A program made the position numbers and the translations under genes. 64,000 nt of DNA, taken from assembly GCF_003856835.1 (NCBI RefSeq), contig NZ_CP034145.1, forward strand, positions 2,294,001 to 2,358,000, given 5' to 3'. How positions within the stretch are numbered: the first letter of the stretch is position 1; each line of letters starts with the position of its first letter. The notes under the pieces were generated by a model. The model was not told the origin of the DNA and searched no databases. It saw only the letters and a list, made by a program, of their open reading frames with translations. This document shows positions 8,492 to 14,430 of this stretch, piece by piece. This stretch comes from Haloplanus aerogenes. GTDB lineage: Archaea; Halobacteriota; Halobacteria; Halobacteriales; Haloferacaceae.

Positions 8492-9028
8492 ACACTATGG
8501 TTCACCCACTGTCCGATATATATGGAGATCATTGGTTCTATATCGATCTTGTCCTTCGCAATAGCCACGACCTCGGCTGAGGAGAGTCAAAGAAATCTCG
8601 AACCCTGTTCTTGGCGGCTCTACCCTGGGGGAAGCGTCTTCCTGAGCCGATTGCAGCATTCGTGCTTCACCGACGGCGTCGGGGTACTTCAAAGTGGTCG
8701 TGATTACCGGCGTAATCAGGACCACCGGTGTCAGAAGTCTCATAACCATATTTCCTATGATAGAAGGGCTCTATCCCCCGAAATTCGGATTTGGCCAACG
8801 GTATAAATCATATACCGCTATACCAAAGCCGCGACCTTGGAAGTTGAGACTACAACGGGTATAGCAGGGCTGTAATGCGTGGATTTTGCCGATTTGGTCA
8901 GCGGAAACCACCTCAATTCTCTCTCCAAGCGGCCATTCTTGTCACACTTCCAATGGTAAGGGCGAATTTTCGAGACATCCAACAGTGTAACCACTCAGAC
9001 TGCGCGCTAACCCAGACTGAGTGTCTCT
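8492..9028. other. Gene-free stretch between regulator and IS transposase
   Basis: No convincing coding sequence. The region holds the presumed promoter of the wHTH gene (TATATATGG at about 8515-8524) and an imperfect inverted repeat, CTCAGACTG / CAGACTGAG (8994-9022), just past the transposase stop. That repeat could be a terminator or part of the IS end. I found no clear terminal inverted repeats. Confidence 0.4.
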
Positions 9029-10705
9029 CTATCCGATTCCAGTCTCCTTCTTCAGCAGCGTCAGTGTGTTATCTGCCGTCACCATCGGCGAGTGCTCGTA
9101 CTCACCGGTCAACGCGACCTGGACGAGCAAGTCGACGGCTCGCCAGATCGAGTACAGCAGGCACGCGAACGCGAAGTAGAAGAAACGAAGCCCGAAATTC
9201 TTCGACGTGGTAGCAGCCATGAACCGCTTTATCGATCTGTACCCGCTCTCGATTTCCCACCGATACCCGTACTCAGTGAGGTGCCCACTCCCACAATTCG
9301 TCATGAACACCGAGTACTGCCGGTGGTCGTCGTGCTCGGAGTCCTCTTTCCGTCGGTAGATCAGCGTCGTCTCGTGCCATTCGTTCCTCCCGAGGTGAAG
9401 CCCGCGGTCGGTCTCGTATCGATCCCGATCTCGTTGGAGCAATCGATTCGCCTGTGCCTTCTCGCTGGTCTGCATCCGTTTCGGGACGACGTAAGACAGC
9501 CCGCGCTGGCTGATCATCTCCAGAACGTGCTGGCTATCAAATTCCCGGTCCATCAGCACGTTATCGACGTGAACGAGGTCCTCAGCTGAATCGAGCAAGT
9601 CCTCGACGATTTCCAGTCGAGTCTCCCCCTTTCGGACGGGGCGCGCGTCCAGCACGATAGGGACGGCATTGCCGACCAACTGGACCGTCGCCCACTGGTA
9701 GGCATACTCGTCGGTCTTCTCCTTCGTGCCGATGATCTCGTCTTCGTGCCCAGTCCTATCACCAGTGAAGGGATCAGCTTCGGTAATGTCGATTGCAACA
9801 ATCCCAGCTCGGAAGAACTGCTCTGTCTCCGAAACTTCGTTCAGAAGTCTTCCGATGGCCTGTCGGTACATCTCTCGGATCTCCGCAATTGAGAGGTCAC
9901 GAACTTGCTCGCGATGGGCGTGCCCTAACGGTGTCCGCTCACGAGTTGACTCGTAGGTGAAGCTCCGAGCGCCCTCGTTGGCCGCGAGGCGCTCACGAAG
10001 TCCGAGATACGTCTGTAAGTCCCAGTAAGCGTTCTCGTGAATCTCACAGCCCTCACCTCGATCCAGTGAGAATGCCGGGAAGACAACACGACTGACGTGC
10101 TCCGTAATTGTTGCCGCTTCGTCAAGGACAGCTTGATCGTCTGGGTCCGATTCGTCCTCTTCGTCACCGTAGGATGGAAGACGCCGTTCTGGTTCGCGTG
10201 GGACGGCAACACCCGTGTCCTGGGCTTTGATGAGGATGGTCCGCGCAGCTGTTTCGACGGTACTGCGAAGCTCGGCAGTGAACCGTTCGTGCCAACTGCG
10301 CCATAGCGTCGACTGGTTCGGTAGACTCTCCAAGCCTAACTGCTTGCGGAGTGCCGGGCGACACTCGAGATACTCGATCAGCGCTGTTTCGTGTTCCCAC
10401 CCATGACACTCCTTCAGTATAAATACGCGAAAGAGCGTATCCATCTCGTAGCGAGTCGACCCTGCGTAGCGGTCGTGAGGGCTGAATTTAACGTACGCTA
10501 GCGGGAGCGAATAGACGAAGTTCTCGACTGACTCGTGGTGGTCGTGTTTGAACCACGTCTGTGAGACAGTCCGAATATCTGATTCCAGTCCGGCAAGCGA
10601 GGACCGATCGTACAGCGGTGTCGAATCGTACACTGGCCACTCAGCATACGGTCGCTGTGCGATTTGCCGAAAGACAGTCCGGTGAGAGTCCTGGGTCACA
10701 GCCAC
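9029..10705 (-). mobile_element. IS4-superfamily transposase (DDE)
   Basis: The 558-residue transposase gene is intact. It carries the YREK signature of the IS4 superfamily: Y-x2-R-x3-E-x6-K within YGYRWEIESGYRSIK near residue 480. Likely first and second acidic residues are in IVAIDITEADPF (about 315) and NVLMDREFDS (about 395). The long N-terminal helical region and the LxEYL..RPALRKQLGL stretch match large haloarchaeal transposases. I could not delimit the element: neither flank shows a convincing terminal inverted repeat or target duplication, so the ends may be degraded. It lies beside a broken lipoprotein gene (10782-10992). Confidence 0.88.
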
Positions 10706-10781
10706 TACGGGATGCTGGCCCCGAGACGTTCAAGAATCCGATGTATAGTTATTAGTCGCTCGCGTGATATCCGTCCGCGGA

Positions 10782-10992
10782 ATGGGTTCCTGTGATAATC
10801 AGCACGACCGTCGAACGTTCCTCTGCGGTGTTGGCCCGCTACTGCTGGGACTCGGACTCGCTCGTTGTACTTGGTGGTGGAGATGAAGACGACGGCGGAG
10901 ACAGGGGAAGAGGGCGAAGACGAAGGGGAAGTCGAGAACCTTCGCCGACCGGAGCTGAGAAACACTCCTTCAGTATTTTGCAGGATTGGTGA
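10782..10992 (+). pseudogene. Tat lipoprotein remnant, frameshifted
   Basis: From ATG 10782 a short frame gives a twin-arginine leader (HDRRTFLCGVGPLLLGLGLA) ending in RC, then stops at 10884-10886. A neighbouring frame continues with Gly/Asp-rich and Arg-rich residues to 10992, as expected after the lipobox of haloarchaeal lipoproteins. This looks like the first part of a secreted lipoprotein gene broken by a frameshift, perhaps a relic of the insertion next door. The mature part is not identifiable. Confidence 0.35.
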
Positions 10993-11029
10993 GATTTCCA
11001 TCAGAGTTTGGACAACTTCAGTTCCAGAC

Positions 11030-11365
11030 TCAAGCTATCAGGAGAGAACCCACCGAGATGAATATAAGACCTAATGCGTAGAAGATAATGTATCGGTCCC
11101 ATCTAGTATTCTTTCGTTGATCGATATTCCGATCCACCACTGCAGATTCGATTCTCCCCCTATGCGAAGGACCTCCGACACCGCTTGTACGAACATTTCC
11201 CGCACCTCCAACAAAGAGAAGCAGAAGAAGACCAACCAAGAACAATATAAACGAACTATCGAATCCGAATATGAACACAACACCGGTAAAGGTGATTGCC
11301 GCTAGAACGATCCCAGAAATTGCCGAACGAACGAGTTTCTTATTCACTGATCTCCGAAATCTCAT
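11030..11365 (-). CDS. Small membrane protein of the halocin-like locus
   Basis: The 111-residue protein has hydrophobic segments at about 12-32 and 37-53 and a third at the C-terminus (about 92-110), with a polar loop between. Its start overlaps the end of the wHTH gene by 26 bases, so they are probably one transcript. The DNA is AT-richer than the flanks and shares this trait with the regulator and the Cys-rich precursor. I do not recognise the family. Its place beside a secreted Cys-rich peptide gene makes export or immunity a guess only. Confidence 0.6.
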   Translation of the reverse strand: MRFRRSVNKKLVRSAISGIVLAAITFTGVVFIFGFDSSFILFLVGLLLLLFVGGAGNVRTSGVGGPSHRGRIESAVVDRNIDQRKNTRWDRYIIFYALGLIFISVGSLLIA

Positions 11366-12170
11366 TGCCAGATGACTCCGCTGGTTCTACTATCTCGTCT
11401 GTTCCTTCCGAACTATGATTAATGTTTTCGTATTTTTGTTCTCCCCAAAAGGTAGACATCCGAGAACTATTTTGAATTAGTCCACATACGCCGTTATTAC
11501 TGAAAATTATTATATTCATCTGCTTATTCCTATCCGCATCTTCATATACTCCGAAACCATATGGAGGAATATTGGTAGCGTCTGTAATCAGAGTAGATTC
11601 TTCAATACAACGCTCATCTTCAAACTGCCTCAAAGACTGGATTCCTTCTGGCGGGAGAATAAGCTCTAATGATGAGTCCTCATCGCTAACAAACTGATGA
11701 AGATTATCGTATATTCGATAGGTGAGGACTGGGAGTACCAAATGCAGCGACAAGATTGATTCAATCATCTCAAACAGCTTCTTTGCCGGAAGGTCAGGAA
11801 TTGACTCCGTAGGGACAAATATCTCAGAATCATAAAGTACATTCGGAGGAACCTGCCCAGAGCTATGAATGTCATTTCGGATATCCCATAGCTCTAATGA
11901 TTTTTTTATAACATCATGGTAGTAGATACAAGTCTGATAGATGAACCGGCCATAGGGATTGAGAGTGTATTGGCTATCATTTTTATTCATCAAACTATAT
12001 TGTTCTAATTCACGCAAGGCACGATCAACAGTTGAACGTGAGACATCCAGTTGATCAACTAATTGTGGTTTTGTATACGAATCAGTGGAAATCAGCTGGA
12101 TAATACTTTGACGTTGAATAACTATACTAAGCACTTCTTCCGAGGAGGGCTCCACACGTCGGGGAAACAT
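11340..12170 (-). CDS. wHTH transcriptional regulator (FilR1-like)
   Basis: The 276-residue protein has an N-terminal winged helix (about 22-72: YTKPQLVDQLDVSRSTVDRALREL) and a larger C-terminal domain that resembles the middle domain of FilR1-type archaeal regulators. It is divergent from the Cys-rich precursor at 12434, with a 263-base AT-rich intergenic region holding the likely promoters of both, so it is the obvious candidate regulator of that gene. Regulators of this kind are known beside the halocin C8 gene. Base composition is markedly AT-rich for a haloarchaeon. Confidence 0.8.
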   Translation of the reverse strand: MFPRRVEPSSEEVLSIVIQRQSIIQLISTDSYTKPQLVDQLDVSRSTVDRALRELEQYSLMNKNDSQYTLNPYGRFIYQTCIYYHDVIKKSLELWDIRNDIHSSGQVPPNVLYDSEIFVPTESIPDLPAKKLFEMIESILSLHLVLPVLTYRIYDNLHQFVSDEDSSLELILPPEGIQSLRQFEDERCIEESTLITDATNIPPYGFGVYEDADRNKQMNIIIFSNNGVCGLIQNSSRMSTFWGEQKYENINHSSEGTDEIVEPAESSGNEISEISE

Positions 12171-12385
12171 ATTGGATAAATATCACTACAACAACTTATT
12201 TGTTCATACAATTAGGATATTTCAGACATGATAATTCTATCACTCCATGAGAGATCTTGTAGTATCTGATTATTCGTTCATGTATCCTCTCTAGAACCAG
12301 ATTGAGGAACAATCCCAGATCTACAGATACTCGGCCGCTAACACGAGAATTCAGGTCTGAGAATCAAATAGTCAATCAGAGTTAA

Positions 12386-12399
12386 ATTTAATAATAATT
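12386..12399 (+). promoter_or_regulatory. TATA-like element of the Cys-rich precursor gene
   Basis: An AT-only run (TTTAATAATAATTA) lies 35-48 bases before ATG 12434. This is the right place for an archaeal TATA box with a short leader. It is in the intergenic region shared with the divergent regulator. Confidence 0.4.
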
Positions 12400-12433
12400 A
12401 CATGAAAGTCTACCCTTCCCCTCACCCTAATCG

Positions 12434-13261
12434 ATGTCTCGTAAAGACCACGAGAGATCGATCGAGGCGTATCGAGAAAGAATATCCAAGGCGATCGGTA
12501 GTGGAGGAGGATGTGCAGAAGCCTGGGAAGCCTCACAAGAACAGCGTAATTCAGAAGAGTCCAATCTCAAACGTCGCGAGGTCCTAGAAAAAAGCGCGAA
12601 GGCGAGTGCAGGTGGCTTCGCACTAAGTTCTCTCGTGCCCTCTACGGGGGCAAAGATCGCAGACTCACCGCAGTTGGAAACTCAGCTGAATAAAAAAGTC
12701 CAAGAGTACAATTCTATGGATGCAGTGGTTGGCGTCCTCGAAGCCAACCTGCAACCAATTCTGGATAGGCTATACGAGGAAGGCCATCTCACCACACGTT
12801 CCGCGGTGGAAATGGTCGAAGAACCGTCGCTAGAGACGACCAGTAACACCTTCGTCGAAGCTAACCTTGTTGGAGGAAAAGATGGCCAAAGTGACGTGGG
12901 GCTTCCAACAGCATCGGTTCAAGTCAATGCACCTTCTGCGGGCGAAAAGGAAGTCGTCCTCCGCGCACTTCCAGCTGTTGACTCCTACTATGCATTACTA
13001 AAAAATCCAGAAGAGCAGGCAGTTCAGACATATGAACTCGTCGAAGCAGATGGGAGCATATACGCCCAATACACAGACTGCTGCTTCAAAAACGATATCT
13101 GCTATCTCGGATGTGGGGGGCAAGGATGTTACTGCAACCAGTATACAGTGTATTGTTGCTCCGGATCCTGTACAGAGTGTAGATATGAATTGAACCGGGT
13201 GAATTGGTGTAGTGCATGTGGTTCAGACGGTCCATGCAAGGGTAACAATTGTGGGAATTAG
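12434..13261 (+). CDS. Halocin C8-like Cys-rich peptide precursor
   Basis: The 275-residue precursor has an acidic N-terminal segment (1-45), then KRREVLEKSAKASAGGFALSS (46-66), a twin-arginine-like export segment. A hydrophilic middle (about 70-210) follows, then a C-terminal peptide (about 215-275) with 14 cysteines, at 216, 217, 223, 227, 232, 234, 241, 242, 246, 249, 259, 262, 268 and 273. This matches the plan of the halocin C8 precursor: Tat leader, N-terminal part known to act as immunity protein, and a cleaved Cys-rich antimicrobial C-terminus with 10 Cys. The peptide itself is not HalC8 by sequence. The divergent wHTH gene fits regulation. The role as an antimicrobial is inferred from architecture. 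Confidence 0.72.
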   Translation: MSRKDHERSIEAYRERISKAIGSGGGCAEAWEASQEQRNSEESNLKRREVLEKSAKASAGGFALSSLVPSTGAKIADSPQLETQLNKKVQEYNSMDAVVGVLEANLQPILDRLYEEGHLTTRSAVEMVEEPSLETTSNTFVEANLVGGKDGQSDVGLPTASVQVNAPSAGEKEVVLRALPAVDSYYALLKNPEEQAVQTYELVEADGSIYAQYTDCCFKNDICYLGCGGQGCYCNQYTVYCCSGSCTECRYELNRVNWCSACGSDGPCKGNNCGN

Positions 13262-13318
13262 AAGGTAGACATCTTCTACATCACACTACGCTTCCTTATT
13301 CTTCCTACCATATGCATT

Positions 13319-13633
13319 GAAACAGTTGGTCTCAACTACTGCTTCACGCAGGAGACGTGCGGGGCGTGCGCAACGCAACGAGAGAAAAACGAAGGCATCG
13401 AAGATGCGTATCCGGATGTCGAATTTCGCGAGGTCGACATCCAGACCGATCTGGAGACGGCCGAGGAGTACGGCGTCCGAAAGACGCCAACGACGCTCGT
13501 GTATGCGAACGGGGAGCGGACTGACGAGTTCATCGGCATCGTCGACCGGGACGAACTGGAGGAGGCTATCGAACGTGCAGACCAGCAAGCGACCGGACTC
13601 ACGCAACGGCTCGCCAGCATCGTACGCAGATGA
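13319..13633 (+). pseudogene. Thioredoxin-fold protein, start codon missing
   Basis: An open frame of about 104 residues encodes a thioredoxin-like protein. It has the redox motif CGAC near its N-terminus (YCFTQETCGAC), a cis-Pro motif KTPTT about 50 residues later, and a C-terminal helix. No ATG, GTG or TTG lies in frame ahead of the first strand; only an ATT at 13316. The upstream few codons seem to have been replaced when the halocin-like locus joined here. The stop overlaps the next start (ATGA at 13630), so it formed an operon with the blue copper protein. Confidence 0.6.
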
Positions 13634-14430
13634 CGGAAACCAAACAATCAGATATGAACTACAGTAGACGCCAGTTTCTGGGAGCGCTCGGAGCCGGCAC
13701 AGTCGCGACCGCGGGACTCACTCGGCCAGTCGCTGCACAGGAGACGCCCGTCGTCAAGATGGGAAACAACTACTTCGACCCGATCGGGCTCTATGTCGAC
13801 CCCGGCACGACCGTTCGCTTCGAGATAGCTGCCGGAGCACACTCGGCGACGGCCTACGAGAACCGGATTCCATCCGACGCCAGCGCATTCGATAGTGGCG
13901 TCATCTCGTCGGGAGGATTCGAGCACACGTTCGAGGAACCGGGCACGTACGACTACTACTGCATCCCGCACAAGTCGGTCGGGATGGTCGGTCGTATCGT
14001 CGTCGGTAGTCCCGGTGGCCCGGCCGAGAACAGTCCGATTCCGAACGGCGACGTACCCGACAGCGAAGCGATCGTCGAACAAGGTGCGATAGCGTATGGC
14101 TCCAGCACCGGAGGTGGCGAGAACTATGGTGGCGGAACGATGGGTCCCGGGATGGGGTCTGGCTCGGGGATGATGAACGGTCGAAACGGCGGTATGATGA
14201 ATGGCCGGAACGGCGGCTGGTTTGGCGGGCTGCCGTTCGCCGGCGGGGTACTCGGAATACTCGGACTGGTCGGTGGACTGCTCTACTTGTCACTGGGTCG
14301 AGGTGACTCACCTCCCGAGAGTGACGGTTCCGCGATGGAAACCCTCCAACGTCGATACGCACGAGGCGAGATCGACGACGAGGAGTTCCAGCGGCGCCGT
14401 GAGCGATTAGTGAAGGATCAAGGGAACTGA
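13630..14430 (+). CDS. Blue copper (halocyanin-like) protein with membrane and SHOCT segments
   Basis: The 266-residue protein has a Tat leader (SRRQFLGALGAG, from about residue 11). A plastocyanin-type domain follows with copper ligands in GAHSATA (His), YYCIPHKSVGM (Cys, His, Met). Then come a Gly/Met/Asn-rich linker with repeated MMNGRNGG, a transmembrane helix (about 200-222) and a C-terminal SHOCT-like helix pair (QRRYARGEIDDEEFQRRRERL). Halocyanins carry electrons at the outside of the membrane. The Met-rich linker may also bind copper. SHOCT on a cupredoxin is unusual. It overlaps the broken thioredoxin-like gene by 4 bases. Confidence 0.88.
   Translation: MTETKQSDMNYSRRQFLGALGAGTVATAGLTRPVAAQETPVVKMGNNYFDPIGLYVDPGTTVRFEIAAGAHSATAYENRIPSDASAFDSGVISSGGFEHTFEEPGTYDYYCIPHKSVGMVGRIVVGSPGGPAENSPIPNGDVPDSEAIVEQGAIAYGSSTGGGENYGGGTMGPGMGSGSGMMNGRNGGMMNGRNGGWFGGLPFAGGVLGILGLVGGLLYLSLGRGDSPPESDGSAMETLQRRYARGEIDDEEFQRRRERLVKDQGN

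Follow-up and report, generated by a model that had tools for sequence, protein, structure and literature searches.

A cysteine-rich propeptide carried by a haloarchaeal cargo transposon, with a predicted bacteriocin-type role

The DNA analysed here, a 64,000-nucleotide stretch from Haloplanus aerogenes (the window), carries a complete 4.5-kb cargo transposon (8838 to 13341) comprising a transposase, a small membrane protein, a regulator and a Cys-rich peptide precursor gene. Judged from profile and alignment, the precursor belongs to an undescribed family of haloarchaeal Cys-rich propeptides. We put at even chances the prediction that it gives rise to a Tat-exported, disulfide-rich bacteriocin-type peptide with an antimicrobial role, encoded in a self-contained mobile cassette. 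Few halocins are known at the gene level. If the family is antimicrobial, it would represent a chemically different class in archaeal antagonism, with seven possible disulfides and without a hydrophobic core.

After allowing for its ends, the element extends from TGGAAGTTGAGAC (8838) to GGTCTCAACTACTG (13341). The left terminal repeat TGGAAGTTGAGAC (8838 to 8850, + strand) marks the end at which homology of other plasmid copies also starts, and the right end, CATATGCATTGA-N8-GTCTCAACTACTG (13309 to 13341, + strand), carries a 36-bp end signature. The transposase (9029 to 10705, - strand) comprises 558 residues and matches Pfam DUF772 and DDE_Tnp_1. BLAST aligned positions 8803-13341 of the window with the Haloplanus sp. 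GX21 plasmid NZ_CP147875.1 (L129, 8369-12908) at 99.7% identity over 4,542 bases, with differing flanks. The plasmid copy is bordered on both sides by the direct repeat TCTGGCGAT, a 9-bp target-site duplication; none was found around the window copy. A host thioredoxin gene (13340 to 13636, + strand; PF00085, 1.9e-10), located outside the cassette, is in frame and truncated exactly at 13340, at the right border of the transposon, its match starting at profile position 25. The GC content of the region is 41-46% versus about 55-60% around it, as the AT-richness noted originally implied. The near-identical unit in two replicons, the defined ends, the target-site duplication and the related elements with other cargo identify the cassette as the cargo of a cargo-carrying transposon, in which transposase and cargo lie between inverted ends and move as one with target duplication. 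The original prediction had described a transferred cassette at 11030 to 13261, lying between broken genes. Transfer is borne out by the plasmid copy; the locus is real but the true unit is larger, and a broken gene is present on the right only, the left neighbour being the intact transposase of the same element.

The same transposase family was observed in about 60 plasmid records, many of which share the left end as the point where homology begins. We found the 36-bp right-end signature in 43 plasmid records, almost all of them from haloarchaea, in some cases 2-16 kb past the transposase. In the regions that we read, the cargo between such ends includes ars genes, heavy-metal ATPases, Fe-S genes, chemotaxis genes, an RND transporter and toxin-antitoxin pairs, and several related elements are, by our reading, flanked by direct repeats of 7-8 bp. 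With its transposase, short terminal repeats, target duplication and cargo inside the ends, the window element resembles insertion sequences with passenger genes; its family differs from these in being haloarchaeal, in its cargo of about 2 to 16 kb and in its preferred target motif. A literature search of partial coverage returned no description of a haloarchaeal cargo-transposon family.

The precursor gene (12434 to 13261, + strand) lies on a chromosome-sized contig and encodes a 275-residue protein, WP_124897069.1, that is encoded identically on the Haloplanus sp. GX21 plasmid. The Cys-rich open reading frame reported earlier was thus confirmed: residues 216-275 contain 14 cysteines, including CC pairs and C-x-C, and the leader has a single additional one, C27. 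The protein starts with a GGGCAEAWE module (residues 1-46; 12434 to 12571, + strand), which recurs in other Cys-rich precursors and also in small haloarchaeal proteins that stand alone. It is followed by a Tat-type signal, RREVLEKSAKASAGGFALSSL (12572 to 12655, + strand), as anticipated from its twin-arginine-type leader, in which the RR at residues 47-48 and L51 are invariant in 17/17 family members (alignment A5). A pro-domain with a short linker (residues 75-215; 12656 to 13078, + strand), delimited by alignment A5, is predicted to form three helices followed by four or five strands. The remainder is a Cys-rich core of 60 residues (13079 to 13258, + strand), defined by the same alignment and hydrophilic by hydropathy. 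The AlphaFold2 model of the pro-domain has pLDDT values of mostly 82-92 at residues 81-130 and 161-190 and lower elsewhere; confidence for the core is poor, and no helical core is predicted. A sequence search of the PDB with the family pro-domain and core gave no homologue of solved structure, and a fold search of solved structures with the window model and with a HalC8 model returned nothing significant.

We searched 392 genomes with a profile of the pro-domain and core, which revealed 15 further members; alignment A5 contains 17 sequences. The closest relative, L025, is 31% identical to the window precursor across the full length, core included. The family has one shared pro-domain and variable cores of 8-20 Cys with a recurring pattern, C-x-C-x4-[VIL]-x-CC-x(3-7)-C, and the window precursor has both the pro-domain and a Cys-rich core of this kind. 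The number of core cysteines is even in 16/17 members, as expected if every Cys is paired; at random such a parity would arise about once in 7,000, although the relatives share ancestry and their counts are not fully independent. Median identity within the family is 12% for cores (Cys omitted) versus 22% for pro-domains. Genome G176 has two tandem members (L139, 3978-5719) and a third elsewhere (L140), and the tandem paralogues are 40% identical in the core versus 63% in the pro-domain. Cores that diverge more than their pro-domains are a feature of toxin families. Neither Pfam nor NCBIfam contains a match to the pro-domain or core of the 17 sequences, and peptide-pattern scans of genome contigs and viral contigs recovered no relatives.

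A further member, WP_014732775.1 (E6P09_RS17015), is encoded on plasmid pHME505 of Haloferax mediterranei ATCC 33500 and matches the family profile over its whole length (93.7 bits). Like the window precursor it has a Cys-rich core, here with 12 Cys; unlike it, it has no GGGC module, and the adjoining HTH gene does not match the HVO_A0261_N regulator family found beside the window precursor.

The locus had been described as halocin C8-like, and this interpretation is partly supported. The canonical halocin C8 precursor (ProC8) among our sequences, L046 (283 aa), whose core we take to be that of HalC8, follows the predicted three-part plan as does the window protein, with a Tat signal, a folded pro-domain and a Cys-rich C-terminal peptide in one gene. 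In the prediction for HalC8, too, helices at the N-terminal end of the pro-domain precede strands, and a remote fold relation between the two pro-domains is possible on the models. Canonical ProC8 differs in having no GGGC module and in its core, which has 10 Cys, is hydrophobic and is predicted to be helical, at low to middling confidence. The curated halocin C8 domain TIGR04449 matched neither the window precursor (E<=5) nor any of its 17 family sequences. In a whole-length profile-profile comparison, the window family and the HalC8 family align only in the Tat region; with this region removed, hhalign probability is 0.5% for the pro-domains (against HalI) and 0.1% for the cores. Core GRAVY calculated without Cys is -1.18 for the window precursor and -1.10 for the window-family median versus +0.56 for the HalC8-set median; L025 (+0.39) is the exception in the window family. 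We reject membership of the halocin C8 family on these results, whereas the leader shared with TIGR04449 proteins and the regulator family near halC8 are the basis for the partial likeness. L046 equals the published ProC8 in length, and published halocins are described as hydrophobic, which the window-family cores are not (PMC11509114).

In a first family-level search with the window protein, matches in other genomes were confined almost entirely to the N-terminal 60-80 residues, which consist of a GGGCAE[AT]WE module then the Tat motif. Intact GGGC-leader precursors have a Cys-rich C-terminal end, and two of them, L003 and L008, match TIGR04449. The set (L002-L006, L008, L011, L021-L033 and Halar_0084) shares with the window precursor the module, the Tat motif and the Cys-rich C-terminus, often along with a small membrane protein and a regulator in divergent orientation. 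Its middle domains differ, and its cores are hydrophobic, with a median GRAVY without Cys of +0.66 versus -1.10 in the window family. Across the order, the module is also found by itself as a small protein, or preceding unrelated proteins that have no Tat signal, and by this distribution it is not specific to halocin-like proteins. The stand-alone relatives (L096 1924-2133, L097 2047-2211 and L073 ~1466-1624) have a C-terminal motif of the D-G-x-G-C-T-E-I-W-E-x-[LM]-S-E type, and the one that was tested matched no Pfam family. Proteins of ~228 aa without a Tat signal (L034, L036, L038 and L042) combine an N-terminal GGGC module with a C-terminal CPDCGG zinc-ribbon-like part. Gln is enriched just before the core of GGGC-leader precursors (L004, L021-L030 and others; 22/204 versus 94/2843 residues), mostly within S/T/A-x-Q, a possible processing site. 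A shared S/T-x-Q processing motif was rejected: enrichment is confined to the GGGC-leader set (p=5e-6) and is seen neither in the window family nor in the HalC8 set, and the motif was thus not applied to the window precursor.

As originally described, a winged-helix regulator (11340 to 12170, - strand; PF25213 HVO_A0261_N, 3.4e-13) is divergent from the precursor gene, and a small membrane protein follows it. Regulators of this family are divergent from 7/35 peptide genes examined and are located within the examined flanks of 10/30 TIGR04449 loci, including canonical halC8, two of the ten being copies of one gene. The family is common: each genome examined in the genus has 22-56 matches, on the order of 1% of genes; its presence beside peptide genes therefore exceeds expectation. 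The membrane protein (11030 to 11365, - strand; 111 residues) has the three hydrophobic segments predicted earlier and an identical copy in L129, and is a candidate immunity protein. Its reading frame overlaps the 3' end of the regulator gene, and it adjoins the regulator rather than the peptide gene. Small membrane proteins with two or more predicted segments adjoin 12/17 GGGC-leader genes versus 10/49 controls (p=3e-4), the segments being counted by a simple hydropathy scan and the neighbour controls being small; family members that lack the GGGC module show no such link (2/13). In a sister genome of the genus the window membrane protein gene is conserved without the peptide gene (dN/dS 0.22), as an orphan immunity gene would be, though this single case would also fit a general function. 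We found no homologous immunity protein conserved across the loci, the recurring neighbours being mainly regulators and transposases.

On the DL31 plasmid (L179 1994-6168; Halar_0083-0088), a regulator gene is divergent from a GGGC-leader Cys-rich gene, after which come the genes of two small membrane proteins and then that of an ABC transporter. Together they resemble a complete bacteriocin-like operon; the annotation lists nothing beyond hypothetical proteins and an ATPase. An arrangement with small membrane proteins and a transporter of the ABC type after the peptide gene is a usual one for bacteriocin self-protection.

In the function that we propose from these sequence features, the precursor would be made in the cytoplasm and exported via the Tat pathway, an extracellular protease would cut the 60-residue core from the pro-domain, and the 14 core cysteines would pair into seven disulfides. 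Export, cleavage and pairing are suggested by the invariant RR, the precursor plan and the even Cys counts. The freed hydrophilic, disulfide-knotted peptide may then act against competing haloarchaea. The first candidate for protecting the producer is the small 3-helix membrane protein, and the pro-domain may do so instead or as well. The divergent regulator would control expression of the cassette, and the transposase moves the unit among plasmids and chromosomes. We infer an antagonistic role from cores that diverge faster than pro-domains, from the leader and regulator kinship with halocin C8 loci, from the membrane protein genes beside GGGC-leader genes, and from the transporter and membrane proteins on the DL31 plasmid. 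The hydrophilic cores, the commonness of the regulator family, the low-confidence core model and the absence of the membrane-protein link from members without the GGGC module count against a bacteriocin, as does the fact that no member of the family is known to us to have a tested activity.

Some other secreted disulfide-rich protein, such as a protease inhibitor (perhaps with halolysins as its targets), a component of the cell surface or a protein that binds metals outside the cell, is somewhat unlikely. The hydrophilic, Cys-dense core and its pattern, which fits an inhibitor-like knot, would suit such a protein, and no PDB homologue speaks against it; the gene is, however, dispensable and mobile and has its own regulator, and leader-sharing relatives are associated with small membrane proteins. 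A small secreted peptide adjoining a regulator and a membrane protein could also be a pheromone-like signal: the producing cells or their neighbours would sense the processed core, and the regulator and membrane protein would be part of the response. Signalling peptides are usually conserved in sequence, whereas the cores here diverge faster than the pro-domain, and many members have no adjacent regulator or membrane protein; a signal is thus unlikely.

Two further readings are far less probable. An ordinary zinc-binding or redox protein that stays inside the cell would account for the high Cys content with CC and C-x-C motifs, but the Tat signal is invariant across the family and zinc-finger models gave no match; the suspicion that the core belongs to a known zinc-binding family likewise found no such match in Pfam or NCBIfam. 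That the precursor is a genuine halocin C8 family member whose core has diverged is equally hard to credit: the plan is the same, the N-terminal module is common to TIGR04449 proteins and a same-family regulator is found near halC8, yet the domain profile and the profile-profile comparison argue against it, hydropathy is opposite, and the helical core predicted for HalC8 has no counterpart in the window model. 

Returning to the bacteriocin-type peptide, we propose, at somewhat less than an even chance, a new archaeal class whose hydrophilic, disulfide-knotted and highly variable cores are all preceded by the same conserved pro-domain. Some members carry, fused to the latter, a GGGC module common to a cytosolic haloarchaeal small protein, and ready-made sets of regulator, toxin and immunity genes would be spread as cargo by a haloarchaeal transposon family that selects its targets.

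An exported haloarchaeal precursor that works comparably is HmHapP (HFX_0892), which is activated by halolysin, that is, by extracellular proteolysis (PMC12893001). Unlike what is predicted for the window precursor, its active part is an N-terminal helical region and not a Cys-rich C-terminus. Deletion of hapP in Haloferax mediterranei leaves unidentified precursors (PMC12893001), for which WP_014732775.1 is a candidate, and this member thus makes the antimicrobial idea testable now in a tractable strain.

The cargo transposon provides a concrete vehicle for moving such cassettes among haloarchaeal replicons. Copies of the element family with the DUF772/DDE transposase (window 8838-13341, L129, L152, L155-L158, L161 and L086) have conserved ends and very varied cargo, and repeats of 7-9 bp border several of them. 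A second element, of another family (L086), contains a regulator, a frameshift-broken GGGC-leader Cys-rich gene and a small membrane protein. On a 141.5-kb contig of genome G152 (L082), three copies of the window element's transposase family separate and flank two different GGGC-leader Cys-rich genes, each with a divergent regulator. A CGCTATAC-like motif is observed ~13-16 bp before the left end in seven copies (window ~8815-8837, L129, L152, L155, L156, L158 and L161), where an integrase gene often borders one side and ParA or Orc1 the opposite side. The motif and these neighbours suggest that the element may choose targets near plasmid recombination or partition regions.
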